DNA of 64,000 bases, taken from positions 1 to 64,000 of the forward strand of contig NZ_FUWU01000005.1 of NCBI RefSeq assembly GCF_900167415.1, written 5' to 3'. Source of the DNA: Fibrobacter intestinalis. Its GTDB lineage: Bacteria; Fibrobacterota; Fibrobacteria; Fibrobacterales; Fibrobacteraceae. This document shows positions 1-41,518 of the stretch, in pieces. Under the pieces are notes generated by a model that saw only the letters and a list, made by a program, of their open reading frames with translations, did no database searches and had not been told where the DNA came from. Position 1 is the first letter of the stretch, and every line of letters starts with the position of its first letter. Made by a program: the position numbers and the translations under genes.

Positions 1-179
1 AGACGGATCGGCTTGTTTGGCGCACCCATCTTTTCGTCGAACAATTTGGAAAACTCGGTCTCGAACTTGTTCCAGTCAATCTTGTTCGCGAGAACGTAGA
101 GGGGGTGCTTGTGGTTCAACTGCTCCTCAAGGGAGCAGAAAAGGCTTGTCTGTGCGTGGGATTTTGGCGGTCTGTACAT
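1..179 (-). CDS. IS5/IS1182-like transposase, N-terminal part (cut by window edge)
   Basis: Reading the minus strand from an ATG at 179 gives an open frame that runs off the window start. It begins MYRPPKSHAQ and continues with HPLYVLANKIDW and then MGAPNKPIR. The pattern 'HPLY.LA..IDW..FE..F..L....MG.P.KPIR' is the N-terminal (InsH/DUF772-type) domain of IS5/IS1182 family DDE transposases, which cut and paste insertion sequences. Only the first 59 residues are visible, so the catalytic DDE core cannot be judged. Upstream (180-285) lies the presumed left end of the element, next to a truncated restriction-type gene in the same orientation. Family assignment is from motif memory and is fairly secure. 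Confidence 0.8.
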   Translation of the reverse strand, partial: MYRPPKSHAQTSLFCSLEEQLNHKHPLYVLANKIDWNKFETEFSKLFDEKMGAPNKPIR

Positions 180-285
180 AAAAAATGCAAGGTTTTCAAT
201 CATATTTTAGAAATCCTTGCAATATTTTCACAGGGTAGAAATCAGTTTTTCCCAATAGTTATGCGGGCTGGACGAGATTTTAAGG
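1..285 (-). mobile_element. Insertion sequence end (IS5/IS1182-like), partial
   Basis: The transposase start at 179 is followed on its upstream side by about 100 bases with no gene, after which a coding frame (280-603) ends abruptly. The simplest reading is an IS inserted into that gene, with its left terminus near 280-290. A small inverted repeat (GCAAGG at about 187, CCTTGC at about 215) lies in the untranslated leader. I cannot define the terminal inverted repeat or a target duplication because the other end is outside the window, so the right boundary is approximate. Confidence 0.45.
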
Positions 286-603
286 GAGGACTATATATAT
301 TTTGGCTTTGACTTTTTTTGCTACAGATAATTCCTGCCCTATTGCTTTTTTCTTTTTAGGGGATGAAGTAAATTCCTTGGGTGTTTTCATTTCGATAAAC
401 ACGATTATTTCTTTATTCTGATTCAAAACAAGAACGTCAGGTTTCTTAGCGGATATTTTCTCACATTGTTTTATATTTAGTCCTGTAACTTCTTTTGATT
501 GGACTAAATCCTTTATTGTGGTGGCACCAAGGCTCCTACATGTAAATTTCCCAAATTGTACGGGATTTGAGTATAGCTCGTTTTGAATCGTTTGTTCAGA
601 CAT
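280..603 (-). pseudogene. Truncated restriction-type protein with PD-(D/E)xK core
   Basis: This is a 107-residue minus-strand frame. It contains KKPDVLVLNQNKEIIVFIEMK, in which PD followed by E-x-K after two strands matches the PD-(D/E)xK nuclease fold seen at the N-terminus of HsdR-type and some N-6 methylase restriction proteins. The frame stops just after AKIYIV, where such proteins normally continue for hundreds of residues, and IS-like sequence begins there. I therefore read it as the 5' stub of a restriction-modification gene interrupted by the insertion sequence. Whether the stub is translated or active is unknown. It could alternatively be a small stand-alone nuclease-like protein. 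Confidence 0.55.
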
Positions 604-1108
604 TTAAAGAATACTCGCTTTTTTTAACTCAGAGGAAGCGAGATTCGGCATTATTCCAAAAGCTTTGGCTCTACTCGATTTCAAAAAAAAAGGCGTGGAG
701 TCGCATTGCTTATTGAGTCAGTTGAAAGTGGTAGTTTCAGTAACGAGAATAAGAGACGAATCTCAAAATTTCCGGTCGCTCCGCACCATTCGGTACGGGG
801 CTATGTCATAGGGAAATGTAGATTATTTTGTCACTTCGGCAAGCTCAGTGACCTTATACGAAGTTAAAAAAGGAGATGCCCGCCTACGCGGGCATGACAA
901 ATTAGGGGTTGGATTTCTTCGCTTCGTTCGCATCTCCGTTCATTTTCGGTGGTTCGTGTCGTAATACTTGTTGAAAAACGGTGTTCTGGCATATTCTGGG
1001 AGTTCTCCGCCCCAGGCACAGCTGACTTCTAAAATTTTGTCCTTCAAGCAAATATTGTCTTTTGTTGCTAGATGGGCTGAAAATTTGAGTTCGTATCTTT
1101 ATGCGTTC
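604..1108. other. Gene-free stretch with dispersed short repeats
   Basis: No convincing coding frame is visible. Two common dispersed repeat types occur: a TTCGGCAAGCTCAGTGACC-type element at about 835-854, and a hairpin CCCGCCTACGCGGG followed by CATGAC at about 879-898. The remainder is AT-rich with no recognisable gene remnant. Confidence 0.5.
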
Positions 1109-1144
1109 GTATTTGTCGCATAGTGATTGTATATTGCAGTGAGA
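1109..1144 (+). promoter_or_regulatory. Promoter-like block, copy 1 (repeated at 1722-1757)
   Basis: A 36-base block with TATATT at 1130-1135 lies just upstream of the ATG at 1153. Nearly the same block recurs at 1722-1757, upstream of the Fic unit, differing at only a few positions. A TATATT -10 hexamer fits, but no good -35 is present at 16-18 bases. The duplication suggests shared regulation, perhaps by a bound factor. Confidence 0.45.
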
Positions 1145-1152
1145 GGTAAATT

Positions 1153-1719
1153 ATGTGGAGCGAATATCTATGGCAGCATGCAACAAATGACAATGAGAAA
1201 GTGATGTCTCGCTTTTATGGCGTGTTTGCGAATGAATACAAGCCGATTTATTTGATTTTGACGAACAAGGAAGTTGTTTTCGAAAGGTATGGAAAGCAGG
1301 GATGCGCAATCATTCCCGCTTTGTTCTCTTTTAAGGAAGAAATAGATTGTGATGAATTGGTGAAAAATTTCATAAAAATATTGCAGAAGAGTAAGTATAG
1401 ATTCTTGCCCCTGTATAAATTTTTGCGTGATGATTCTGGATTTGAAGGCTTTTTCCCATTCTTTGCGGTCTTTCCACGAATCAATACAGGGAATGCAATC
1501 AAGGAAGACTATGACAACTTTCAGAATTTTAGCGAATTCATCTTAGAACGGTGCAGCGAATTCAGCCTGACTCCATTTTTAACGAAGTCGCAAGAATGTG
1601 GTTTGAACCACCTTAAGAAAGAAACTTATTTTGCAAATCCGTTTCCAACCACATATAGCGAACTCATGCGGCGCACTTTGTCGGGCGAAATTATGCTTCT
1701 GCCTAAGTTTTCTATATGA
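1153..1719 (+). CDS. Hypothetical protein, 188 residues
   Basis: I do not recognise this protein. It is a soluble, acidic-aromatic sequence without a signal peptide or membrane segment, starting MWSEYLWQHA, with a Phe-rich centre (GFEGFFPFFAVFPR) and ending LLPKFSI. The ATG at 1153 is preceded by GAGAGG, a plausible ribosome-binding site, and by the promoter-like block also found before the Fic unit. The frame is long and uninterrupted with ordinary codon use for the window. Its setting beside an interrupted restriction gene and toxin-like genes makes it an accessory gene, but no function can be assigned. Confidence 0.6.
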   Translation: MWSEYLWQHATNDNEKVMSRFYGVFANEYKPIYLILTNKEVVFERYGKQGCAIIPALFSFKEEIDCDELVKNFIKILQKSKYRFLPLYKFLRDDSGFEGFFPFFAVFPRINTGNAIKEDYDNFQNFSEFILERCSEFSLTPFLTKSQECGLNHLKKETYFANPFPTTYSELMRRTLSGEIMLLPKFSI

Positions 1720-1721
1720 CT

Positions 1722-1757
1722 GTATTTGTCGTATATGGATTGTATATTGTAGTGAGA
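1722..1757 (+). promoter_or_regulatory. Promoter-like block, copy 2
   Basis: Second copy of the 36-base block at 1109-1144, again with TATATT followed by a GTAGTGAGA tail. It precedes the short ORFs and the Fic gene. Conservation of the block while the surrounding sequence differs points to a regulatory role or a recent duplication. Confidence 0.45.
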
Positions 1758-1806
1758 AAAAAGGAACTTTTTGTGAGAATTGGATTCTTGGAGTGGTTGC
1801 AATAAC

Positions 1807-1920
1807 ATGGGCAAGTGCGGCGTGTCGATGGCAACTAAAGATATAATGAATGAACTCGGTTTTCACAAAACCTGTGAAAAAGTAAGAGATAAAATTAAAG
1901 GAGCGAACCATGACTCTTGA
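1807..1920 (+). CDS. Possible small ORF, 37 residues
   Basis: A frame starting MGKCGVSMATKDIMNELGF and ending at 1920 overlaps the start of the next small gene by 11 bases. It is rich in charged residues and could be a leader or part of an antitoxin, but it has no clear ribosome-binding site. I list it as tentative only. Confidence 0.25.
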   Translation: MGKCGVSMATKDIMNELGFHKTCEKVRDKIKGANHDS

Positions 1921-2074
1921 TGAAAAAATGCATGAACTGTATTATGAACTAAAGCCGAAGTGCGAAAAGGAAGGGCTGAATCTGGCTTGGGAAGTACACA
2001 AGGCTATAAGGAAGTTTCGTAAAGAAAATCCTGATTTGGATGAACAATGGTCTAGGGAGGCAGAATGTTTATAA
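1910..2074 (+). CDS. Small charged protein upstream of Fic (candidate antitoxin)
   Basis: This 54-residue frame begins MTLDEKMHELYYELKPKC and ends WSREAECL. The ATG at 1910 follows AAAGGAGCG, a strong ribosome-binding site. It is predicted to be mostly helical and is highly charged. Its 3' end overlaps the Fic-domain gene by 10 bases, the arrangement typical of translationally coupled toxin-antitoxin pairs in which the antitoxin comes first. I see no inhibitory (S/T)xxxE(G/N) Fic motif in it, so the antitoxin role is inferred only from position and size. Confidence 0.55.
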   Translation: MTLDEKMHELYYELKPKCEKEGLNLAWEVHKAIRKFRKENPDLDEQWSREAECL

Positions 2075-2604
2075 ATGAATCTTTGGATTCGGATACTCGT
2101 TCGCTTGTGGATGTAGTTTCGGACTACTCGTTTGCACTTAATACTCTTGACGATTACGATCACCAGCGGCTTGTGTTCCCGAAATCGCAAAAGCAGGAGC
2201 GTTTCAAGGCTACTTATGAAAATGCGATGGCGGCGATTCAGGGACTCAAGGAAAAGTTTGGCGGCAGAGATTTGTTCGGTCACGAAAAAGACAATTCATT
2301 CAGGAGTAGCATTGGACAAATTTACCAGACTTTCGACGGCGTGGAGCTTTATTCGTCCGTAGAACAAAAAGCGGCGATGCTCCTTTATCTAGTCGTGAAA
2401 AATCATTCGTTCAGCGACGGAAACAAGCGTATTGCGGCAACGTTGTTTTTGTGGTTCATGCAGAACAACGGAATCTTGTATAATAGTAATGGCTGCAAAC
2501 GAATTGCGGATGCGTCTCTTGTGGCGATAACACTGATGATTGCCGAAAGCCGACCTGAAGATATGGAAATGATGGTAAAAGTGGTGGTGAATCTGATGGG
2601 GTAA
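2065..2604 (+). CDS. Fic/DOC-domain protein (RhuM C-terminal type)
   Basis: Fic proteins transfer AMP or another phosphate-containing group to target hydroxyls. The active-site motif HxFx(D/E)GNKR is intact as HSFSDGNKR at residues 114-122. The downstream stretch ALFLWFMQNN-type helix and 'LVAITLMIAES' resemble the C-terminal Fic part of RhuM-family proteins, but the RhuM N-terminal domain is absent: at 179 residues this is a stand-alone Fic domain with about 80 residues in front. It overlaps a small upstream gene and is followed two bases later by a phosphoesterase. A toxin or modifying enzyme is likely, and the partner and target are unknown. The ATG at 2065 is preceded by TAGGGAGG. Confidence 0.85.
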   Translation: MFINESLDSDTRSLVDVVSDYSFALNTLDDYDHQRLVFPKSQKQERFKATYENAMAAIQGLKEKFGGRDLFGHEKDNSFRSSIGQIYQTFDGVELYSSVEQKAAMLLYLVVKNHSFSDGNKRIAATLFLWFMQNNGILYNSNGCKRIADASLVAITLMIAESRPEDMEMMVKVVVNLMG

Positions 2605-2606
2605 TA

Positions 2607-3335
2607 ATGTGCACTAAACATCATCTTTGGATTTGTGGGGATATTCATGGCGAGTTGTCTAATCTCGTTTGGAAGGCCTCGCATCAATTAAAAATCAGGA
2701 ATGCCGATATTTTGGTTGTCGGTGATTTTGGTGCTGGTTTTGGTCGCCCCAAATCCATGGATGTTGCTTATGCTAAGATTTGTACAACTCTTGTAGAAAA
2801 TGATATTTGTTTGTACACAATTCGTGGCAATCATGATGACCCGTCGTTTTTCGATGGTTCGCACGATTACGAACGTCTTCATTTTTTGCCGGACCATCGG
2901 ATCGTAGAGCTTTGTGGCAAGAAAATTTATCCCATCGGTGGGGCGGTTTCTACGGATATTGATTTGGTCGATCCGTTGACTCGAAAATCACGCCGGATGC
3001 AGAATGATGCTCTTGTCAAATTTGGTTCGTCAAAACGAATTTGGTGGCCGGACGAAGCTCCTTCTAAGGCTCTTGAAAATATTCCCAAAACCACTGACAT
3101 CATTGTTTCTCATGAGGCGCCGCTATCGTTTGAACCTTCGCTTACGCGGGAAGCCCATGTTCGTGATGATACATGGCAAAAGGTCGTTGAATCCCGCCGC
3201 TACCTTGATGATGTTTTGAAGGCGGTCTTGCCTCCACGATGGTTTTACGGGCATTATCATTGTCATTTCGAAGGCAATTTTCAAGGAACGCACTATCGCT
3301 GCCTAGATATTGCAGAAATGACGCAGATTTGTTGA
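2607..3335 (+). CDS. Calcineurin-like metallophosphoesterase
   Basis: All five blocks of the family are present in order: GDIHG (11-15), GDFG (39-42, with G-D retained), GNHD (74-77), SHEAP (about 168) and GHYH (about 215), which together bind a two-metal centre that hydrolyses phosphomono- or diesters. There is no signal peptide, so it is cytoplasmic. The start lies two bases after the Fic stop codon, so the two genes are almost certainly co-transcribed and coupled. Family members in this size range act on nucleotides or phosphoproteins. A role reversing or limiting the Fic modification is an inference from the coupling only. Confidence 0.85.
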   Translation: MCTKHHLWICGDIHGELSNLVWKASHQLKIRNADILVVGDFGAGFGRPKSMDVAYAKICTTLVENDICLYTIRGNHDDPSFFDGSHDYERLHFLPDHRIVELCGKKIYPIGGAVSTDIDLVDPLTRKSRRMQNDALVKFGSSKRIWWPDEAPSKALENIPKTTDIIVSHEAPLSFEPSLTREAHVRDDTWQKVVESRRYLDDVLKAVLPPRWFYGHYHCHFEGNFQGTHYRCLDIAEMTQIC

Positions 3336-3422
3336 GTATGTACGGGAAAGCCCAAAAAAAATGGCGGACAGTCTGCCAGTATTCCCATTTTCATCCTCAA
3401 AACAGCGAAAACATAACAAGTA

Positions 3423-3451
3423 TTGACTCCGATTAGAGTTTTGGTTATATT
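3423..3451 (+). promoter_or_regulatory. Sigma-70-type promoter
   Basis: TTGACT at 3423-3428 and TATATT at 3446-3451 are separated by exactly 17 bases, ahead of TAGGAG and the ATG at 3483. This is one of the clearest promoter matches in the window. Confidence 0.65.
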
Positions 3452-3482
3452 AGGATAAAGTATTGTAGGAGCGAAGTTTTCA

Positions 3483-3722
3483 ATGGTTTTGTTGGACGAA
3501 TTGACTTATCTTGGCAATCTCTTAAAAGCTGCCGACATTAAAACGCGAATGTGCGACGGCTCAAACTCGAAAATGTCGGTAGAATGCGATGGTCGTTCCT
3601 ATTTGATAACGCTGGATCCTATTATGGATTCTTTGAAATTTCTTGACGTAAAAGCGTCTGTAGAAGTTGATTCCTTAACTCCCGAACAATCTTTTTTCCG
3701 TATAACAGGGAAGAATATATAG
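3483..3722 (+). CDS. Hypothetical protein, 79 residues
   Basis: A small soluble protein (MVLLDELTYLGNLLKAADIK...) with its own promoter and a GGAG box 11 bases before the ATG. I do not recognise it. It ends at 3722, a few bases from the end of a convergent 51-residue ORF. Composition is mixed alpha/beta with no signal peptide. The context (toxin-like pairs on both sides) suggests an accessory-region gene. Confidence 0.55.
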   Translation: MVLLDELTYLGNLLKAADIKTRMCDGSNSKMSVECDGRSYLITLDPIMDSLKFLDVKASVEVDSLTPEQSFFRITGKNI

Positions 3723-3727
3723 GGAGG

Positions 3728-3883
3728 TTAGGCTAAATACGGTGTTCGCCAATGCTCCTTGCCAATTTGCTCAATAGCGTCAGCTCCTAATACGCCGCTT
3801 TCCCACAACGCGTCAGCTTCTTTCTGGACGTCATCTTCAGGTTGAGTGCTTGTCGTCAAAGTTTTTTTGCTTTTATTGGTCAT
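3728..3883 (-). CDS. Small hypothetical protein, 51 residues
   Basis: The minus-strand frame runs from ATG at 3883 (MTNKSKKTLTTSTQPEDD...) to a stop at 3728 (...GKEHWRTPYLA). It has a basic, disordered-looking N-terminus and an acidic helical centre. It is convergent with the 79-residue gene, with five bases between their ends. I do not recognise it; small proteins of this kind are often antitoxin-like or regulators. No strong ribosome-binding site is visible, so confidence is moderate. Confidence 0.4.
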   Translation of the reverse strand: MTNKSKKTLTTSTQPEDDVQKEADALWESGVLGADAIEQIGKEHWRTPYLA

Positions 3884-3972
3884 ATGGGATTTGTCGCTAT
3901 GAAAATGGCGGGACAGTTTGCCCGCCTGATTAGGTTGAACCTGGGTCTTTCGACCAGCTCACGATAATATGT

Positions 3973-4401
3973 TTAGGCTTCGAACCAATTCTCCAATTTT
4001 AGGGGAGTGATTTTTGCGATAGGTTCGAAATCTTTTGAATTCCGCGTTACAAGGATCAAATCGTTAGTCAAGGCTGTTGCTGCGATTTGAGAGTCGCATA
4101 TCGGTCTTGGTTGCCCGGCCTTGTTGCATTTGGCGACTACTTCGGCGTAATAAGCCGCCGCAGTTGCGTCATACGGAAAGACATCAAATTTCTGTTTTAC
4201 GATTTCAACATATTCCTTCAGTTTATTCTTTCGAGAGCCGTCTGGCAGAAGTTCAATGCCAAAGAGAGCCTCTTGCAAGGTTATTGCCGAGATTGCACAC
4301 AAAGGCTCAAATCTTTGTATGTTTGTTAAAACGTTGGTATTTGGCTGTGGTTTGGAAAGTTCGGAAATAAGGTTGGAATCCAGCAAGAATCTCTTGTCCA
4401 T
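3973..4401 (-). CDS. PIN-domain RNase toxin (VapC-like)
   Basis: PIN-domain toxins are Mg-dependent ribonucleases. The start MDKRFLLDSNLISEL carries the first catalytic Asp (D8 in LLDSN), an E in LQEALFG-type context follows, and ICDSQIAATAL plus LVTRNSKDFEP supply the later acidic residues (D-S-Q and RNxxDF). Length is 142 residues, usual for VapC. I chose the ATG at 4401 because it lies one base after the stop of the antitoxin gene and puts the LLDSN motif at the N-terminus; an in-frame ATG at 4431 would overlap the antitoxin by 29 bases. With the 90-residue partner it forms a toxin-antitoxin operon. Confidence 0.85.
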   Translation of the reverse strand: MDKRFLLDSNLISELSKPQPNTNVLTNIQRFEPLCAISAITLQEALFGIELLPDGSRKNKLKEYVEIVKQKFDVFPYDATAAAYYAEVVAKCNKAGQPRPICDSQIAATALTNDLILVTRNSKDFEPIAKITPLKLENWFEA

Positions 4402-4402
4402 C

Positions 4403-4675
4403 TTACCCCCAGATATTAGCCTTGCTTGCATCGGGATATTCTACGACACGTCCAGCCTCAAGGTCCTTGGAAAAATCGTCATCAGGCGAACAACCCTGAC
4501 GCCAGCCTTTGAGTGCGTCAAGAAAAGACTCTTTGCGGTTGAGAGTCTCGTTCATATCGCGCTCAATCTTCCCAAATTCCATTTTTAGTTTCAGGTAGAG
4601 AACAAACTTCTCTACCTGCGAAATGTACTCGCTAGGCAGGGCTCGAATTTCTTTATTCAAAACATCCGTAGTCAT
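4403..4675 (-). CDS. VapB-like antitoxin
   Basis: This 90-residue protein directly precedes the PIN toxin, with one base between the stop and the toxin ATG. Its N-terminal part, ALPSEYISQVEKFVLYLKLK, resembles the DUF2281-type antitoxin helix, and the acidic C-terminus (SPDDDFSKDLEAGRVVEYPD) is the kind that wraps and inhibits a PIN toxin. The ATG at 4675 has AAAGAGGACA upstream. Role as antitoxin follows from gene order and shape; no DNA-binding fold is evident by eye. Confidence 0.7.
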   Translation of the reverse strand: MTTDVLNKEIRALPSEYISQVEKFVLYLKLKMEFGKIERDMNETLNRKESFLDALKGWRQGCSPDDDFSKDLEAGRVVEYPDASKANIWG

Positions 4676-4739
4676 TTTTTTGTCCTCTTTTCCAATAATC
4701 TATCTTTTTTGAGTAAAAAAAGCAAGCCTAGCCGCATTC

Positions 4740-4840
4740 GCGTTAGGGATAGTGACCCCTTGGGGCGGCACTATGGTGCCGTTTTAGGCGGCGGTCGACG
4801 AGCGGAGCGATGGCGACTGCCCCTAAAATATAGCCCGACC
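4740..4840 (+). repeat. Dispersed repeat, family C, copy 1
   Basis: The element starts GCGTTAGGGATAGTGACCC and ends AATATAGCCCGACC-like. The same ends bracket 41398-41518, with a different interior. Inside this copy is a perfect hairpin CGGCAC-TATG-GTGCCG, and immediately after it a palindrome CGCACATATATGTGCG (4840-4856). It leads directly into a carB fragment. Confidence 0.6.
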
Positions 4841-4879
4841 GCACATATATGTGCGGGAACGCCCAAACGATTAGGCTGC

Positions 4880-4912
4880 GTGCTCCAGATTTACCACAAG
4901 GAAAAGCCTGCA
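4880..4912 (+). pseudogene. carB: carB fragment (VLQIYHKEKPA)
   Basis: Eleven codons encode VLQIYHKEKPA, matching the CarB stretch that precedes the conserved GVIVQ(F/Y)GGQTP of the second ATP-grasp half. It is followed at once by repeat sequence, and a second, different version of the same CarB position (LETPAGVIV) begins at 5104. This is the first recognisable piece of the broken carB. Confidence 0.55.
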
Positions 4913-5040
4913 AGCCGAGTGTCGCAAAAATATGCTTGCATATTTTTCCTCAAAGAGGATAACTCAACAACGAAACTAAAGTTTCGAGTTTCGTATATAT
5001 GACCGAGGCGAAGCGGCGGACGCCGAAGGCGTCAAAACTT
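4913..5040 (+). repeat. Composite repeat (families B and E)
   Basis: Begins with the family B head (GCAAG..CGAGTGTCGC), then a perfect hairpin AAAAATATGC-TT-GCATATTTTT. Next comes a family E hairpin CGAAACT-AA-AGTTTCG at 4971-4986, flanked by GGATAACTC and TCGTATA, and then the family B tail ATGACCGAG...GACGCCGAAGGCGTCAAAA. One module appears nested in the other. Confidence 0.65.
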
Positions 5041-5103
5041 TGTAAGGCGAGTGATGCGAACGTCAAACTTGTTTGAACGGTCATATCCGAGCCGCAAAGG
5101 TTT
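5041..5103 (+). repeat. Family B repeat, short copy
   Basis: Contains the head GTAAGGCGAGTGATGCG, a hairpin TCAAAC-TT-GTTTGA, and then ACGGTCATATCCGAGCCGC. It separates the two overlapping versions of the CarB stretch at 4880-4912 and 5104-5130. Confidence 0.55.
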
Positions 5104-5130
5104 CTGGAAACGCCGGCTGGCGTGATCGTG

Positions 5131-5232
5131 GCCAGACTAAAGGCTGGCATCGTTCCACTGGAATTGATTCAGCCCGTTGGGCTTTATCGTTCAAATAGGA
5201 ATGCACGCCAGCATAGCTGGCGAGTGTCACGA
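5131..5232 (+). repeat. Insertion 1 in carB (102 bases, in frame, no stop)
   Basis: Lies between GVIV and QFGGQ codons. It is 34 codons long, keeps the frame and has no stop. Imperfect hairpins mark its ends (GCCAGACT-AA-AGGCTGGC at the left, GCCAGCATAGCTGGC at the right), with AGCCC-GTT-GGGCT inside. It ends in the GAGTGTC head typical of family B. Confidence 0.7.
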
Positions 5233-5559
5233 CAGTTCGGTGGCCAGACCCCGCTGAACATCGCCCGCGCCCTCTCCGACGAAGGCGTCAAGATTCTCGG
5301 CACGAGCATCGACTCCATCGACATCGCCGAAGACCGCGACCTGTTCCGCAAGATGATGGATAACCTCGGCATCCCGATGCCGGAAAGCGGCATGGCCACG
5401 AACATCGACGAAGCCCTCGCTTGCGTCAAGCAGATTGGCGGCTACCCGGTGATGATCCGCCCGAGCTTCGTTCTCGGTGGCCGCGGCATGGAAGTCATCT
5501 ACGACGAGAACATGCTCCGCGAATACGTTGCCAAGGCTGTCGGCGTGACCCCGGACCGT

Positions 5560-5640
5560 CATTCACAAGACCGTTCGGCTTTACAAGCCTCACTCTCGCA
5601 AACGCACTCAGCTTGCGCTTGAGTGCTTCTTTGTTCACGG
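5560..5640 (-). repeat. Insertion 2 in carB (81 bases, family A, inverted)
   Basis: Read on the minus strand it is CCGTGA, a hairpin with arms GCACTC and GAGTGC, then GCGAGAGTGAGGC and GAACGGTC, the same layout as insertions 3 and 5 but with a different hairpin stem. Its length is a multiple of three, but it brings a stop at 5620-5622. Confidence 0.65.
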
Positions 5641-5670
5641 CTCATCGACCGCTTCCTCCACAACGCTCTC

Positions 5671-5747
5671 CTGTGAGCCGTAGGCGACTCGTCATAACTA
5701 GTCGTCGAAGGCGAGAGTGGAGCGTGAGCGGAACGGTCTCCATAGGC
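5671..5747 (+). repeat. Insertion 3 in carB (77 bases, family A)
   Basis: GTGAGCCGTAGGCGACTCGT opens an almost identical copy of insertion 5 (6171-6246); both end GCGGAACGGTC..CATA. It lies between HNAL and EADAL codons; the expected Glu-Cys pair is missing, suggesting a small loss at the junction. Confidence 0.7.
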
Positions 5748-5873
5748 GAAGCTGACGCCCTCTCTGACGGCGAACACGTTTACATCCCGTCCGTGATGGA
5801 ACACGTGGAACTTGCCGGTGTCCACTCCGGTGACTCCGCCTGCATTATCCCGCCGGTGACCATCACTAAGGAA

Positions 5874-6002
5874 TAGCGTGCAAGCGAGTGTCGCGACGAA
5901 ATGCTCGCATTTCGGCATGACCGAGCGCCGCCGCGGACGCCTATACGAAACTAGCCACTTTAGTGGCTTAGTTGAGTATCCCCTTTGGGGAAAAGGCGTC
6001 AA
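5874..6002 (+). repeat. Insertion 4 in carB (129 bases, families B and E)
   Basis: Family B head GTGCAAGCGAGTGTCGC, hairpin CGAAATGC-TC-GCATTTCG, then ATGACCGAG; a family E module with hairpin AGCCACT-TT-AGTGGCT at 5953-5968; and the tail GGCGTCAAA. It sits between the ITKE and NLATIK codons, and the flanking carB frame is the same on both sides. Confidence 0.7.
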
Positions 6003-6170
6003 AACCTCGCCACCATCAAAGATTACACGCGCAAGATCGCTGAAGCCCTCCACGTGTGCGGCCTCATGAACATGCAGTATGCCATCGAAGACGGCAAGGT
6101 GTTCGTCCTCGAAGCCAACCCGCGCGCAAGCCGCACGGTGCCGCTGGTCTCCAAGGTTTGTAACACGCCC

Positions 6171-6246
6171 GTGAGCCGTAGGCGACTCGTCATAACGAGT
6201 CGTCGGAGGCGAGAGTGAGGCTGTAAGCGGAACGGTCGTCATAATC
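6171..6246 (+). repeat. Insertion 5 in carB (76 bases, family A)
   Basis: Nearly identical to insertion 3, with a perfect hairpin CGACTCGT-CATA-ACGAGTCG. About 50-55 CarB codons are missing at this site, so it marks an insertion plus deletion, or recombination between two repeats. Confidence 0.7.
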
Positions 6247-6588
6247 GAAGTCCTCGGCCTCTCCGACGACTACGCCCTCGCTTACTACAAGAGCCAGGAA
6301 GCCGCCGATTCCTTCCTCCCGAACGAAGGCGCTGTGCTCATCAGCCTTTCCGACAAGGTGAACCTCTCCGAACAGGCTATCGAAATCGGTAAGGAATTCC
6401 AGAAGCTCGGCTTCAAGATCTACGCTACCGAAGGCACCGCCAAGTTCTATGAGAAGGCCGACGTGAAGTGCGAAGTGGTGAACAAGATTGCTGAAGGCCG
6501 CCCGAACGTCCTCGACATCATCCTGAACAAGCAGGTGAACCTCATCATCAACACGCCGTGGGCAAAGCGCGACGCCATCAAGGACGAC

Positions 6589-6665
6589 AAATGCCAAGGG
6601 CGAGTGAAGCAGGATTGCTTGCAAGCCTATTTCCGAACCCAGCATTTGGGAGCCGAAGGATCCAA
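6589..6665 (+). repeat. Insertion 6 in carB (77 bases, family B-like)
   Basis: Contains GGGCGAGTGAAGC and the hairpin TTGC-TT-GCAA with AGG/CCT outer arms, then CCGA and GAGCCGAAGG. It shifts the frame of the nine-codon carB piece that follows, but the next insertion restores it (77 + 79 = 156). Confidence 0.6.
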
Positions 6666-6692
6666 AGTGCCATCCGCAAGGCCGCCATCAAA

Positions 6693-6771
6693 AGTGTGCA
6701 AGGTGAGTGTCGCACAAAAATGCTTGCATTTTTGTATGACCGAACCGAAGCCACGGACGCGAAGCGTCAAC
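6693..6771 (+). repeat. Insertion 7 in carB (79 bases, family B)
   Basis: GTGCAAGGTGAGTGTCGC head, perfect hairpin ACAAAAATGC-TT-GCATTTTTGT, then ATGACCGAACCGAAGCC and the GACGCGAAGCGTC tail hairpin. The reading frame from 6334 stays open through it. Confidence 0.7.
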
Positions 6772-6900
6772 TACAAGGTTCCCTACATCACGACCCTCGC
6801 CGGTGCCTACAACACTGTCAAGGGAATCGCCGCCGCAAGGAACGGACATGGTGCTGTGAAGAGCCTCCAGGAATACCATGCGACCATTGAAGAGATTTAA

Positions 6901-7023
6901 CAGGAAGTCTCTGCAGGTATGGCTTGCAAGGCGAATGGCGTGTCAGAGAGTTCTCTGGCATGGCTGAGCCGGAGCCGCTGACGCCGTAGGCATCAATATC
7001 ACGCGACGATTGAAAAGGTGTAA
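6901..7023 (+). repeat. Family B repeat followed by a second carB 3' end
   Basis: Directly after the carB stop lies a family B copy (GCAAGGCGAATGGCGTG, hairpin TGTCAGAG-AGTT-CTCTGGCA, CTGAGCCGGAGCC, GACGCCGTAGGCATCAA). It is followed by codons for YHATIEKV and a stop at 7021-7023, a variant of the YHATIEEI that ended the gene at 6900. The last codons of carB are therefore present twice, one on each side of a repeat. Confidence 0.65.
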
Positions 7024-10212: not shown

Positions 10213-13200
10213 ATGTCCGCGGATTCGATAAAACATTCCTTGTGGGGCGATAAGTGGAGAGCCGCTGTAGAGCAGTCTTTTCCGGTGTATTCGCGTTCTC
10301 AGGCTCGCGCTGCCGATATTAAAATTTCGGGCAGAACTGTTGAAGCGCGTATTGTCGATGGCTCGTGGAGTACGCAAAAAACGGTTCTTCTTCTTTCCCG
10401 CTTTTCGGAAGAGGAAGAATCGGCGTTGATGGATTCCTTCAAAAAAAATCCCCAGTTGGCAGAAGCGCTTGCGCATCATCTGGAACCGAAAGAAGCTTTG
10501 GAACTCGCCGAAGGCTCGGGAATAAAGCTTTTTCCCGAACGCGGGGTGAAGTTCTCGGTAAAATGCAGCTGTGGAATGCGGGGAATGTGCCATCACGCTT
10601 ACGCAGCGATTTACGGGGTAGGGAAAAAAGTGGACCGCGATCCGTTTATCCTTTTTAAAATTCGAGGGATGAATGTGGGAATGCTGGCGGAGCAGTGTAC
10701 GCAGGCTTCTTGGGAAGAAGATCTGCCTGTTTTGGAAGGCGCAGACTCGCTTCCGCTTTTTGCCGGTAAATTTACGCTGGTTCCAAAGGCGGGAGCAGAA
10801 GAAATTTCCGAAGTCCCGGAATACGAATCGGCGGATATTGTGGATGTTCGGAAAGCGGTTGTGCATCTGGTTTCGCCGAATGCTGTTTTCCATGCCGATT
10901 TTGTGGACGCTTACAGGGAATGCCTTTTGGAAATGTTCGCCAAAAATTTTGAACGCTATCCCGAGAAGTCGGTAGATTTGGCTGTTCCGGGAATTGTCCG
11001 TTATCGGGGCGGTTCTTGCTGGATGTTTGGGAATGTTCCGTTGGAATGGGCATTGGATGCCGTTTCGGTGGAAGGTTCTGTGGGGATGGAAAAAGCGGAT
11101 GTTTCTTTTCGGCTTTTGGATTATGCCCGAAGAACAGCTTTGGAAATTCTGCATCGGGGCGCCGTTTTTCCGAAGCCTTTTGCTATCGATAAAAAGGATG
11201 CTCAATTTTTTTGGCAGCCGATGGATTTTATTCCCGAAGTTCACGGGGCGATAGAACGTTTGCAGGCTTGGCTTCCGGCAAAATTTGTACGGAGCGATAT
11301 GGAACCGCCTCATTTGATGACGCAGAATGCGGCAGAGATGCTTGTGCTGGCGATACTGAATACGTATCTTCGTGTGGGTTCGGAAAAAATTTTCCGGGAT
11401 GAACGTTTGTACGCTTTTTTTGGCGATGTGACTTTGGCGTATTCCGGGAAAAACGATGGAATAGAAGAATTTGAAAAATGGCTTTCGGGTTATAATTTGC
11501 CGTATGCGCCGTATTTGCCGGTGATAAATGGGGTGGATGCCGGGTTTGGAAAAGTGGATGTGGATTTGGATTTTTTGGACAAATCGACCGGAGAAATCAA
11601 TTCCTATTCCAAATTGTGGATTCGCGATTTTCCTAGCGAAAAACGGGCCAGGATTTTGCGTTCTTTGCAGCCGTTGCAGAATTTTCTTCCGGGCTACGAC
11701 GATTACGTTTCGGCAAAGGCTATGGACAATATCCATTTGTCCGGTGAAAACCTGATTCGCTTTTTGAACGAGTCCGTTCCGCTTTTCCGCGCTTTGAATC
11801 TCGAAATGGATTTGCCACAAGGAATTGAACGTGTTGTCCGAGGAGTTCCGCATCCGCAAATCGTGCGCTCCGACGAAAAGAAACAGGCGGGATTTTGCCG
11901 ACTAGAAAATCTGTTGCAGATGAACTGGTCTTTGGAAATTGCCGGCAAATGGATGGACGGAAAAAAATTTTTGGAACTTTATGCGGAATCCAAGGATTTG
12001 CTGTATTACGAAGGCCAGTATTTTTATGTGCTTCCGGAAGATGTGAAAACGATAAAGGAAGGACTTCGCGACCGATTTAAAATTCCGGCGATCAAGGTTT
12101 TGCAGATTGCGCTTGCGGGTGAATTTGAAGGGCTTTCGGTAGATATTGCCCCTGAAGCGTTGGAAGAAATCCACAAGTTGAAGTCGGAAAACGAATCGGA
12201 CATTCCTGTCCCGCCGCAAATTCGGGCATCGCTTCGCCCTTACCAGAAACGCGGATTTGCTTGGATGCTTGGCAATTCCAAACTCGGATTTGGGAGCATC
12301 ATCGCCGACGATATGGGACTCGGAAAAACGTTGCAGGTGATTACGCTTTTGCAGCAGATGAAAAATGACGGCGCATTGGAAAACGAGAAGGCCATCGTCA
12401 TCGTTCCTACCGGACTTTTGCAAAACTGGAAAAAGGAACTTTCCAAATTTGCTCCAGAGTTGAATGTTCGGATTTATCACGGTTCCCATCGTCAGTTGGA
12501 GATGACGGATCAAGACGTTCTTGTGACGACTTATGGCGTTCTCCGATCGGACAAGGATAAATTGACAGAAAAGCGCTGGCAAGTCGCCGTGATTGACGAG
12601 GCGCAGAACATCAAGAATGCGGGGACTTCGCAGAGCAGGGTGGTGCGCTCTGTTTCGGCAAAGATTAAAATTGCGATGAGCGGAACGCCGGTGGAAAATC
12701 GCCTGTTGGAATTCTGGAGCATCATGGACTTTTGCAATCGCGGTTTTTTGGGAAGCGCAAAAGCCTTTCATGAAGAATTTGAATTTCCCATTCAGGGTCG
12801 CGGAAATAAACATCGGGCGGAGCTTTTCAAAAAAATTTCAGCACCGTTTTTGCTTCGCCGCCTGAAAACAGACAAGTCCATTATCGCCGACCTTCCCGAA
12901 AAATTGGAGCAGAACGACTGGGCGACCCTCTCTCCTGAGCAGGAGACGCTGTACAAAAAGACATTTGATGAGTGCATGTCGAAACTTGCCGATTTCGATG
13001 TGGAAAATGCCGAGGAAAAATTTGAACGTAGTGCCGCCGTGCTTCGGCTGATCGTCGCTTTGAAACAAATCTGCAATCACCCGGTGCAATATTTAAAAGA
13101 AGGAAAACCGGATCCTGCGCAGTCGGGTAAAATGCAGCTCTTTTTGGATATTGTCGGGGGAATTCTGGAGACGGACGAAAAGGTGCTCGTCTTTACGCAG

Positions 13201-13650
13201 TTTACGGAAATGGGCGAAATTTTACAGGATGTCCTCAAAAAGGAACTGAAAGCGGAATCTCTTTTCTATCACGGCGGATTGTCGGTTTCTGCGCGGGAAC
13301 AGATCATTTCTGAATTTGAAACCTCTCCGGAAAAAAGAATTTTGATTCTTTCTTTGAAAGCGGGCGGAACGGGATTGAATTTGACGGTCGCATCTCAAGT
13401 GATTCACTACGATTTGTGGTGGAATCCGGCTGTAGAAGCGCAGGCGACGGATCGCGCGTATCGCATTGGCCAAAACCGTCGCGTGGTCGTGCACCGCTTG
13501 ATTACGAAGGACACGTTTGAAGAAAAAATCAACGATATGCTCGAAAGCAAAAAGAAAATTTCCGAGATGACGGTGGCTTCGGGCGAAAACTGGATTACGA
13601 AACTCTCTGATGATGAACTTCGTCAGGTCTTCACTTTGGGAAAAAATTGA
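10213..13650 (+). CDS. SWIM zinc-finger SNF2-family helicase
   Basis: This 1145-residue DNA-dependent ATPase has a SWIM zinc finger (C118-S-C120...C126-H-H128), a long linker domain, then a SNF2 motor. Motor motifs are DDMGLGKT (Walker A, about 700), DEAQ (about 795), SGTPVENRL, LSLKAGGTGLN and the R-x-x-R-I-GQ of motif VI (AYRIGQNRRV), followed by the HRLITKDTFEEKI signature. Bacterial SNF2 proteins of this type (RapA/HepA or SWIM-SNF2 class) remodel protein-DNA complexes in transcription or repair. All motor residues look intact. The ATG at 10213 has little upstream ribosome-binding signal. It is monocistronic, with a hairpin after it. Confidence 0.9.
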   Translation: MSADSIKHSLWGDKWRAAVEQSFPVYSRSQARAADIKISGRTVEARIVDGSWSTQKTVLLLSRFSEEEESALMDSFKKNPQLAEALAHHLEPKEALELAEGSGIKLFPERGVKFSVKCSCGMRGMCHHAYAAIYGVGKKVDRDPFILFKIRGMNVGMLAEQCTQASWEEDLPVLEGADSLPLFAGKFTLVPKAGAEEISEVPEYESADIVDVRKAVVHLVSPNAVFHADFVDAYRECLLEMFAKNFERYPEKSVDLAVPGIVRYRGGSCWMFGNVPLEWALDAVSVEGSVGMEKADVSFRLLDYARRTALEILHRGAVFPKPFAIDKKDAQFFWQPMDFIPEVHGAIERLQAWLPAKFVRSDMEPPHLMTQNAAEMLVLAILNTYLRVGSEKIFRDERLYAFFGDVTLAYSGKNDGIEEFEKWLSGYNLPYAPYLPVINGVDAGFGKVDVDLDFLDKSTGEINSYSKLWIRDFPSEKRARILRSLQPLQNFLPGYDDYVSAKAMDNIHLSGENLIRFLNESVPLFRALNLEMDLPQGIERVVRGVPHPQIVRSDEKKQAGFCRLENLLQMNWSLEIAGKWMDGKKFLELYAESKDLLYYEGQYFYVLPEDVKTIKEGLRDRFKIPAIKVLQIALAGEFEGLSVDIAPEALEEIHKLKSENESDIPVPPQIRASLRPYQKRGFAWMLGNSKLGFGSIIADDMGLGKTLQVITLLQQMKNDGALENEKAIVIVPTGLLQNWKKELSKFAPELNVRIYHGSHRQLEMTDQDVLVTTYGVLRSDKDKLTEKRWQVAVIDEAQNIKNAGTSQSRVVRSVSAKIKIAMSGTPVENRLLEFWSIMDFCNRGFLGSAKAFHEEFEFPIQGRGNKHRAELFKKISAPFLLRRLKTDKSIIADLPEKLEQNDWATLSPEQETLYKKTFDECMSKLADFDVENAEEKFERSAAVLRLIVALKQICNHPVQYLKEGKPDPAQSGKMQLFLDIVGGILETDEKVLVFTQFTEMGEILQDVLKKELKAESLFYHGGLSVSAREQIISEFETSPEKRILILSLKAGGTGLNLTVASQVIHYDLWWNPAVEAQATDRAYRIGQNRRVVVHRLITKDTFEEKINDMLESKKKISEMTVASGENWITKLSDDELRQVFTLGKN

Positions 13651-13761: not shown

Positions 13762-15297
13762 ATGATGACGATGGTCGTTTTTATTCTTTATTTGCTGCTG
13801 ATGCTCGGCGTGGGATTTTATTTTTCGAAAAAGGCGAATAGCTTGAATTCCTACTATCTCGGCAACCGAAACATGAACAAGTGGGTCGTGGCGATGTCCG
13901 CGCAGGCGTCCGACATGAGCGGCTGGCTTTTGATGGGGCTTCCCGGAGCCATTTACCTTTCGGGGCTTTCGGAGGCGTGGATTGGCGTGGGGCTCGCCAT
14001 CGGTACTTACATCAACTGGAAAATTGTCGGTCGTCGGCTGCGCAAGTACACCTATTTTTGCAACGATTCAATAACCTTGCCCGATTTTTTTGCCAATCGC
14101 TTCCGCGATAAGCGGGGAATTATCCGCGTAATTTCGGCTCTGTTTATTCTGGCATTTTTCCTGTTTTATACGACTTCCGGATTTGTCAGCTGCGGAAAAC
14201 TCTTCTCGACGATTTTCGGCTGGGAATATACGACCGCATTGCTCGTCGGCGTTGTCGTCGTGGTTTCTTACACCTTCTTGGGCGGTTTTCTGGCGGTCAG
14301 CTGGACGGATTTTGTGCAGGGCATTTTAATGCTCATCGCCGTGCTGATGATTCCCATCACGATTTGTACGCTAAACGATGGATTTGCTCCGACCATCGAC
14401 GCAATGAATAAGGTGAATCCCTATCTGATGAACATTTTTACGAATGCTTCGACTGGGAAAGCGATTACGGTGATTTCGCTCCTCTCTTCGCTTGCCTGGG
14501 GACTCGGCTATTTTGGAATGCCGCATATTTTAGTGCGCTTTATGTCGATTAAAAACCCCGACGAGATTACGCATTCTCGCCGCATTGCCATGACTTGGGT
14601 GATTTTGTCGCTCGGCGCATCCATTTTGATTGCGGTTTTTGGACGCTATTATCTGTTGCAGCATAACATCGCGCTGGATGACCCCGAAAAAGTCTTTATG
14701 GTCTTGGCGACAAATCTTTTCCCGACGGTGATTGCGGCGATCATTATGGCGGCGGTACTGGCAGCGATTATGAGTACGGCGGATTCGCAGCTTCTTGTTT
14801 CGGCTTCGGCATTTAGCAACGATCTTTATAAACGCCTGATTCACAAAAAGGCTTCGAACAAGGAATTGATGCTTGTGAGCCGAGCCATTGTGCTTGTGAT
14901 TGCGCTTGTCGCTGGATTTTTGGCTTATCAAGGACGACCGAACGCTTCTCACGGATTTTTAGACGTGGTGATGAGTCTGGTGAGTTTTGCCTGGGCGGGA
15001 TTCGGCGCCACATTCGGCCCCGTCGTTCTGCTCTCGCTCTTTTGGAAGCGGACGAATTTGCCCGGCGCGATTTGCGGAATGCTTTCGGGTGGAATCCTCG
15101 CCTTTGTCTGGAAGTTTTACCTTTCGGGCTTTGCGGATTCCTATGCGATATTCGGTCTTTACGAACTGGTCCCTGGTTTCGTCGTCAGCTTTGTGACGAT
15201 TGTCGTCGTGAGCCTTTGCACGCGGAAGCCTTCGGACGAAATCATCCGGGAATTCGAACAGGTCGATTCCAGCCGTTTGAGCGATTTGATCCATTGA
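13762..15297 (+). CDS. putP: Sodium/proline symporter PutP
   Basis: A 511-residue sodium:solute symporter with about 13 membrane helices. The N-terminal block YYLGNRNMNKWVVAMSAQAS and DMSGWLLMGLPGAIYLSGL match PutP closely, including the S-x-x-A-S-D-M-S-G-W stretch of the sodium and proline site. The IMSTADSQLLV segment of helix 8-9 is the family signature. It imports proline with sodium across the inner membrane. The ATG at 13762 follows GAGGATG; ATGATG gives a second possible start three bases on. It stands alone between the helicase and the metal-transport group. Confidence 0.9.
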   Translation: MMTMVVFILYLLLMLGVGFYFSKKANSLNSYYLGNRNMNKWVVAMSAQASDMSGWLLMGLPGAIYLSGLSEAWIGVGLAIGTYINWKIVGRRLRKYTYFCNDSITLPDFFANRFRDKRGIIRVISALFILAFFLFYTTSGFVSCGKLFSTIFGWEYTTALLVGVVVVVSYTFLGGFLAVSWTDFVQGILMLIAVLMIPITICTLNDGFAPTIDAMNKVNPYLMNIFTNASTGKAITVISLLSSLAWGLGYFGMPHILVRFMSIKNPDEITHSRRIAMTWVILSLGASILIAVFGRYYLLQHNIALDDPEKVFMVLATNLFPTVIAAIIMAAVLAAIMSTADSQLLVSASAFSNDLYKRLIHKKASNKELMLVSRAIVLVIALVAGFLAYQGRPNASHGFLDVVMSLVSFAWAGFGATFGPVVLLSLFWKRTNLPGAICGMLSGGILAFVWKFYLSGFADSYAIFGLYELVPGFVVSFVTIVVVSLCTRKPSDEIIREFEQVDSSRLSDLIH

Positions 15298-40980: not shown

Positions 40981-41090
40981 TCGAGTATAACTCCACTAAG
41001 GTAACAAAGTTACCAAGTGTCGTATATCCACATAGAGGATAACTCCACTAAGTCAATAAATTGACAAGTGTCGTATAACCCCTTTGGGGT
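40981..41090 (+). repeat. Family E repeat, two modules
   Basis: Two modules with flanks ATAACTCCACTAAG and CAAGTGTCGTATA enclose different hairpins: GTAAC-AAA-GTTAC (41001-41013) and TCAAT-AA-ATTGA (41053-41064). The second also occurs inverted at 24475-24488. Confidence 0.7.
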
Positions 41091-41397: not shown

Positions 41398-41518
41398 GCG
41401 TGAGGGATAGTGACCCGAACGGGCGGAGACGCGGCTTGCGCGGCTCCGTTGCTCTTGGCGGCAAAGCTGCTTCGCTCTTATTTTGCGGCTTTGCAGCCTA
41501 GTGCAATATAGCCCGACC
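41398..41518 (+). repeat. Dispersed repeat, family C, copy 2
   Basis: Opens GCGTGAGGGATAGTGACCC and closes ATATAGCCCGACC, like 4740-4840, but with a different interior containing GGAG..CGCGGCTTGCGCGGCTCC-type hairpins. Confidence 0.6.

Follow-up and report, generated by a model that had tools for sequence, protein, structure and literature searches.

A probable displaced 3' end of carB at the edge of an accessory island in Fibrobacter intestinalis, and a structured repeat that marks similar junctions in Fibrobacteraceae

In Fibrobacter intestinalis, the first 64,000 nucleotides of one contig (C45:1-64000 of a 3.29-Mb, 116-contig genome; here, the window) contain half of a carB gene that is chopped up by short palindromic elements. 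How did half of a housekeeping gene come to lie at this place, and why does it carry so many insertions? The original prediction read the locus as a pseudogene that had acted as a landing pad for such elements. To this end of the gene we aligned the intact carB of the same genome (C66, L010:5171-8401, 1076 aa); a second carB type adjoins carA on contig C25. The window fragment is 5'-truncated and extends from codon ~621 to codon ~1077, stop codon included. Its pieces are collinear with the intact gene at 91 to 94% nucleotide identity and are separated by eight insertions comprising nine palindromic elements (73 to 206 nt). Directly 5' of the fragment lies a structured junction repeat, termed J, which begins GCGTTAGGGATAGTGACCC and ends GGGAACGCCC. 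The features of this region are as follows, with carB pieces and insertions placed by the alignment.

4740-4869, + strand: J, structured junction repeat, 130 nt (GCGTTAGGGATAGTGACCC...ATATAGCCCGACC-hairpin-GGGAACGCCCAAA)
4881-4906, + strand: carB piece 1, codons ~621-629, 26 nt; the carB fragment on contig C100 of the same genome starts identically
4907-5112, + strand: insertion, 206 nt; a stack of two palindromic elements, with a repeat nested in the first
5113-5131, + strand: carB piece, codons ~630-636
5132-5233, + strand: insertion, 102 nt
5234-5558, + strand: carB piece, codons ~636-743
5559-5642, + strand: insertion, ~84 nt, in place of a few gene bases
5643-5670, + strand: carB piece, codons ~748-757
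5671-5743, + strand: family B element, 73 nt (GTGAGCCGTAGGCGAC...)
5744-5873, + strand: carB piece, codons ~759-801
5874-6004, + strand: family A element with nested repeat, ~131 nt, at codon 801; site also filled in the fragments of genomes G005, G052 and G056
6005-6168, + strand: carB piece, codons ~802-856
6169-6245, + strand: family B element, 77 nt, joined to the loss of codons 857-910
6246-6586, + strand: carB piece, codons ~911-1024
6587-6663, + strand: element, 77 nt, at codon 1024; also in the G051 and G060 fragments
6664-6687, + strand: carB piece, codons ~1025-1032
6688-6766, + strand: family A element, 79 nt, at codon 1033; also in the G051, G052 and G005 fragments
6767-6900, + strand: carB 3' end with stop codon
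6901-7023, + strand: another displaced carB tail of 36 nt, interrupted by an element of ~79 nt
10213-13650, + strand: SNF2-type helicase; follows the carB 3' end in congener G003
13762-15297, + strand: symporter; follows the SNF2 gene in congener G003 as well

The alignment agreed with the predicted order of the broken carB segments and, within alignment slack, with the predicted lengths of seven insertions (102, ~84, ~73, ~130, 77, 77 and 79 nt). That map had missed the 206-nt insertion with the 26-nt piece before it, which occupies the site of the sole insert in the C100 fragment, as well as the second tail at 6901-7023, a doubling also present in the carB fragment on contig C116. Its coordinates, 4880-7023, covered the fragment and left the decisive feature, the J element, just outside. 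The predicted loss of about 50 to 55 codons at the fifth insertion proved to be one of 54 codons (857-910) at the 6169-6245 element. Likewise, the reading frame at 6334-6900 (188 aa) does run open through two elements, because their lengths sum to a multiple of 3 (77 + 79 = 156 nt). A functional gene in this frame was rejected, since it has neither start nor promoter evidence and is open by the chance sum of two insert lengths; introns were rejected on the grounds that gene bases are lost at several insertions and that a 5' part is lacking from the fragment. Differences between the fragment and the intact gene fall mostly on third codon positions (12/6/77), so that the displaced allele may have been functional until recently or may have been converted by the intact gene. 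The C116 fragment (L011, ~500-1800) is only ~53% identical in amino acids to both carB genes of this genome and adjoins xseA and a DUF3368/UPF0175-like toxin-antitoxin pair; judged by this divergence, it probably derives from a carB type no longer present in the genome.

The surroundings of the window fragment bear on its origin. In G003, a member of the same genus (g1, six genomes), the 3' end of carB is followed by the SNF2 gene and then by the symporter gene; downstream of the window fragment, both genes recur with unchanged order and orientation. The fragment therefore occupies the former place of the carB 3' end. The predicted dead carB fragment was thus there, yet its context marks it as the native 3' end, displaced and now bounding an island. 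Contig breaks leave the join between C66, with the intact carB, and C45, with the fragment, unseen in this genome.

J is not confined to carB. Its start occurs 13 times in the same genome (up to 3 mismatches) and is present in 79 of 111 genomes of the family Fibrobacteraceae. In the window's genome J sits before 5'-truncated carB (C45, C100, C116), thrS (C32), ileS (C11) and nifJ (C34, C33), and in relatives before pieces of carB, thrS, leuS, ileS, nifJ, valS and the gene for V-ATPase subunit I. Among the 56 exact J matches in 18 near-complete genomes, a sample chosen in advance, half (28/56) lay directly 5' of 3' fragments of these seven genes, all on the same strand; next to the other 28, no fragment of the seven genes considered was recognised. 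Further J targets were noted at loci L242, L247, L252, L244, L246, L318 and L333, where they comprise valS, V-ATPase subunit I, a glycoside-hydrolase-like gene and one other gene.

Alignment of 21 J copies revealed a single fold of seven helices, with 95.9% of cells paired. Covariation amounted to 0.336, compared with 0.110 ± 0.010 in shuffled alignments (0/500), and sliding the alignment against the fold left at most 54% paired. Invariant blocks separate variable arms, which resemble exchangeable modules. A small set of discrete internal-arm versions (TTTTAACAGCG, TTCTGGGAGGTGAGCGG, TTGCAAGAGC, TTTTATGAGGTTGGG, TTTTAGGAGGCGG) is combined freely, as if arms had been swapped between copies. The terminal hairpin tends to track the target, with CCCACACGATAGTGCGGG at thrS, CCGCACATATATGTGCGG or CCCGTGCGGAGCGCGGG at carB and CCCACGAAGTGGG at ileS. 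A search of Rfam gave no family match to J (one sub-threshold hit, E 0.87, far below the gathering score), and J was not found in viral contigs or plasmids. J is a folded DNA/RNA element without an earlier description. A J-like variant (GCGTGAGGGATAGTGACCC) and a dispersed repeat of ~50 nt are also present in the window, at 41027-41077 and 41398-41416, without a gene fragment; these repeats belong to a second, intergenic J subfamily.

Across Fibrobacteraceae, J forms part of a recurrent unit, [intact gene]-[cargo]-[J]-[3' fragment], often in tandem, at carB, thrS, ileS, leuS, nifJ, valS and V-ATPase subunit I. In the single-contig genome G005, intact carB, ileS, thrS and nifJ are each followed by their own 3' fragment on the same strand after 2 to 10 kb of accessory DNA, and the intact thrS and nifJ of the window's genome likewise have same-strand 3' fragments downstream. 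Three or four successive units lie behind the intact thrS of G058 and three in G054. The carB arrangement was also found in G052 (genus g6), G051 and G056, and the leuS arrangement in G061. Searches for fragments of leuS, thrS, nifJ and carB returned 3' parts only, save for one short N-terminal leuS-like match in G002. Fragment start points recur in carB, thrS and nifJ, and each gene has many different ones. One exception, in G005, has leuS fragments 291 kb from the intact leuS, and adjacency of gene and fragment is therefore not universal (the two loci are C1:1040883-1043743 and 1334991-1337663, the fragments lying with AbiE cargo). In G003, G004 and G002, contigs often break off within the 3' half of carB, thrS or nifJ, which repetition of these halves would lead one to expect.

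For ileS, an empty site could be compared with a filled one. In the window's genome, ileS is followed directly by a gene whose product begins MKNLYC. Between ileS and this same neighbour (99% aa identity), G005 has a C5-methylase gene with its partner, then J, then a piece of ileS that starts at codon 873; the unit carries two genes only. The ileS proteins of the two genomes are 94 to 100% identical up to codon ~870 and 18 to 70% identical past it. The displaced fragment starts where the intact G005 gene diverges, with GAAGAACT at both boundaries, and it is 87% identical in nucleotides to the native end in the window's genome versus 67% to G005's own ileS. Fragments of ileS start at the same base (GAAGAACT) in G005, on contig C11 of the window's genome, in G061 and in G109, which represent three genera. 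Fibrobacter also has an alternative ileS end of this type, with the switch at codon ~993 and not at 873, so the insertion point and the crossover need not coincide. Displaced native ileS tails lay behind the intact gene in 7 of 12 genomes with the alternative 3' end versus none of 10 with the native end (one-sided Fisher test, ~0.005). Sharp replacement of the 3' end was seen for ileS only; carB and thrS are mosaic without a clean switch. Mosaicism in ileS, thrS and carB makes these flanking core genes candidates for raised recombination.

Upstream of J, positions 1-4739 of the window hold accessory cargo of toxin-antitoxin type, with Pfam matches given in brackets.

280-603, - strand: Shedu-C-like remnant (SduA_C, weak, below the Pfam cut-off)
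2065-2604, + strand: Fic (3e-11)
2607-3335, + strand: metallophosphoesterase (Metallophos, 3e-11)
3973-4431, - strand: PIN/VapC (PIN, 5e-11)
4403-4675, - strand: small partner gene of PIN/VapC

Part of this DNA was found in another genus. Window positions 3336-4574 are 93.3% identical over 1253 nt to DNA beside J in G029, and 4541-4786 are 95.1% identical to G030 DNA abutting J and a carB fragment, whereas intact carB differs by ~17% between the two genera. The G030 fragment is 90% identical to carB of the window's genus versus 81% to carB of its own genus, and it shares with the window fragment both the element at 6169-6245 and the 54-codon deletion. Units therefore cross genera together with their fragments. 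Elsewhere, cargo identified with Pfam and PADLOC included methylases, Zorya-like ZorAB with HerA, Tiamat-like, PDC-M33, AbiEii, PIN toxins, Fic and zeta, as well as AAA_21 with DUF4276 and lipoproteins of the Fibrobacter major-domain type. Among 38 scanned cargo proteins there was no integrase or recombinase, and IS transposases were the only mobility proteins. At L188:11265-11828, a gene of the uracil-DNA-glycosylase family closes a Zorya-like/HerA cargo beside J.

The inserts within displaced fragments are elements of 66 to 131 nt that form two main families plus a nested repeat, much as the original prediction had described several families with one repeat inside another. They also occur elsewhere in the genome, as the original prediction required, namely within the other displaced fragments of thrS (C32), nifJ (C33) and carB (C100, C116). 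Insert sites shared between the fragments of different genomes far exceeded expectation (25 versus 3.1 for carB, 17 versus 1.7 for thrS; 0/5000 randomisations each), orientation at shared sites was identical in 42/42 cases, and insert identity was 0.78 within a shared site versus 0.54 between sites. The 6169-6245 element and its 54-codon deletion, for instance, are common to the G051 and G030 fragments. At carB codon 801 and thrS codon 414, the inner stem is replaced wholesale between copies with pairing kept. Direct repeats between the element start and the right flank exceeded those in shuffles at one junction, which suggests insertion with duplication. Whole-unit transfer between genera explains the recurrence of insert sites only in part. 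Gene conversion as the sole source of shared inserts is awkward, as the 24 nt that separate two shared inserts have retained own-genus sequence.

Taken together, these results are best explained by serial displacement: the window carB half-gene is a displaced native 3' end, left behind by J-bounded islands that spread by homologous recombination through the housekeeping gene. We assign this reading a probability of about 0.8. An accessory block ending in J would enter behind a complete carB, whose 5' part is kept and whose 3' part is newly supplied. The old 3' end would stay downstream behind J, attached to its old neighbours, and repeats of the event could build tandem arrays of the form [intact gene]-[cargo]-[J]-[3' fragment]-[cargo]-[J]-[3' fragment]. 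Between strains and genera, units would spread by homologous recombination, with the gene on one side and the fragment or J on the other; we infer this route because gene and fragment offer homology at either end and the scanned cargo contained no integrase. The dead fragments would then gather palindromic repeats at recurrent sites and carry them along.

Possible, if doubtful, is site-specific integration, with J as a folded recombination site (attC-like in spirit): a trans-acting recombinase would insert cargo-J cassettes at defined positions in these genes, the cassette supplying a new 3' end as e14 does at icd. The identical ileS start base in three genera, the recurrent starts in carB, thrS and nifJ, the occurrence of GAAGAACT at both G005 boundaries and the combination of invariant blocks with covarying arms in J all fit such a process. 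It is opposed by the 38 cargo proteins without integrase or recombinase, by the many different start points per gene and by the left crossover at codon ~993 in Fibrobacter ileS, and fixed starts may instead go back to a founder unit that homologous recombination has spread. A related and tentative proposal sees in J-bounded cassettes a new kind of mobile unit that lacks an integrase: a folded single-stranded DNA or RNA element, served by an enzyme in trans, would place defence cargo at set positions within essential genes, the 3' end being restored by the cassette. If so, a host could not lose the junction without losing an essential gene.

Serial displacement also fared better than explanations that start from the fragment itself. 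An ordinary pseudogene serving as a landing pad for transposing palindromes like those of Rickettsia, without any island context, would account for a dead fragment, for several element families and for the excess of direct repeats. It is improbable given that insert sites, orientation and site-specific sequence are the same across genomes (25 versus 3.1, 17 versus 1.7, 42/42), that J and cargo accompany every locus and that several fragments have the 54-codon deletion in common. The landing-pad view is incomplete because the fragment belongs to a recurrent class spanning seven housekeeping genes and its insert sites are common to other genera. Reverse transcription of abundant mRNAs into 5'-truncated copies would yield 3' fragments only, and the affected genes are long and presumably highly expressed; nevertheless, we consider it very unlikely, since fragments are found behind the intact gene or at the gene's original position, retain the native flank past the gene (ileS, carB) and, for ileS, resemble the native allele and not the current one. 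Many contigs end inside target genes, as an assembly artefact might produce, but the same architecture in single-contig G005 and in many independent genomes with identical boundaries leaves this hardly credible.

With at least seven housekeeping genes affected, the J-marked arrangement has the look of an integrase-free route for gathering genes that are often anti-phage. J together with a 3' fragment of one of the seven genes provides a sequence handle for finding integrase-less defence islands and bears on how such hotspots form. Furthermore, C-terminal parts of aminoacyl-tRNA synthetases and other essential genes are swapped across genera along with anti-phage genes, and displaced 3' fragments explain why assemblies of these gut bacteria break inside the target genes. 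Our literature search found nothing specific on Fibrobacter repeats or displaced ends of essential genes.

Several known systems share parts of this arrangement. Integron gene cassettes carry cargo that ends in attC, a site with a conserved fold and variable arms, as the cargo of J units does. In contrast to attC with its complementary RYYYAAC/GTTRRRY cores, J has no such cores (the bases inside GCGTT/AACGC, AGGG versus GGGG, are not complementary); moreover, no IntI was seen in J-unit cargo, and fragments of essential genes are part of the J unit. MITE, REP and ERIC-type repeats are, like J, non-coding, structured, multi-copy and mostly intergenic (PMC10969869); J differs in that half of its sampled copies mark the points at which genes are truncated. 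Rickettsia palindromic elements are short palindromic repeats of ~100-150 nt that form several families and lie inside coding sequence (PMC10969869). The predicted resemblance to them held for size, palindromy and the presence of several families; unlike these in-frame, translated elements, the window inserts are mostly not multiples of three (206, 131, 73, 77, 77, 79) and lie in dead, 5'-truncated fragments, and inserts in Fibrobacteraceae have recurrent sites with site-specific sequence.

In the core defence hotspots of Pseudomonas aeruginosa (PMC10250203), accessory and defence genes turn over beside core genes without recognisable mobility genes, and so does J-unit cargo, in which no integrase was seen. 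For integrase-free hotspots, homologous recombination has been proposed (Oliveira et al., PMC5635113). J units differ in that they duplicate the core gene's own 3' fragment at the far side, always behind J; the available part of PMC5635113 does not mention such a fragment for hotspots. The prophage e14 of Escherichia coli integrates in the 3' part of icd and supplies a new 3' end, while the old one (163 bp) remains as a duplicated pseudogene at the other boundary (PMC6379469, citing Hill et al. 1989). Elements of this type encode an integrase; none was found among the 38 scanned cargo proteins of J units, which occur at at least seven genes, displace up to ~460 codons, form tandem arrays and have J at the boundary. 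Of the events described, e14 in icd (PMC6379469) is the closest to J units: as at icd, the 3' end of G005 ileS was replaced and the old one displaced.
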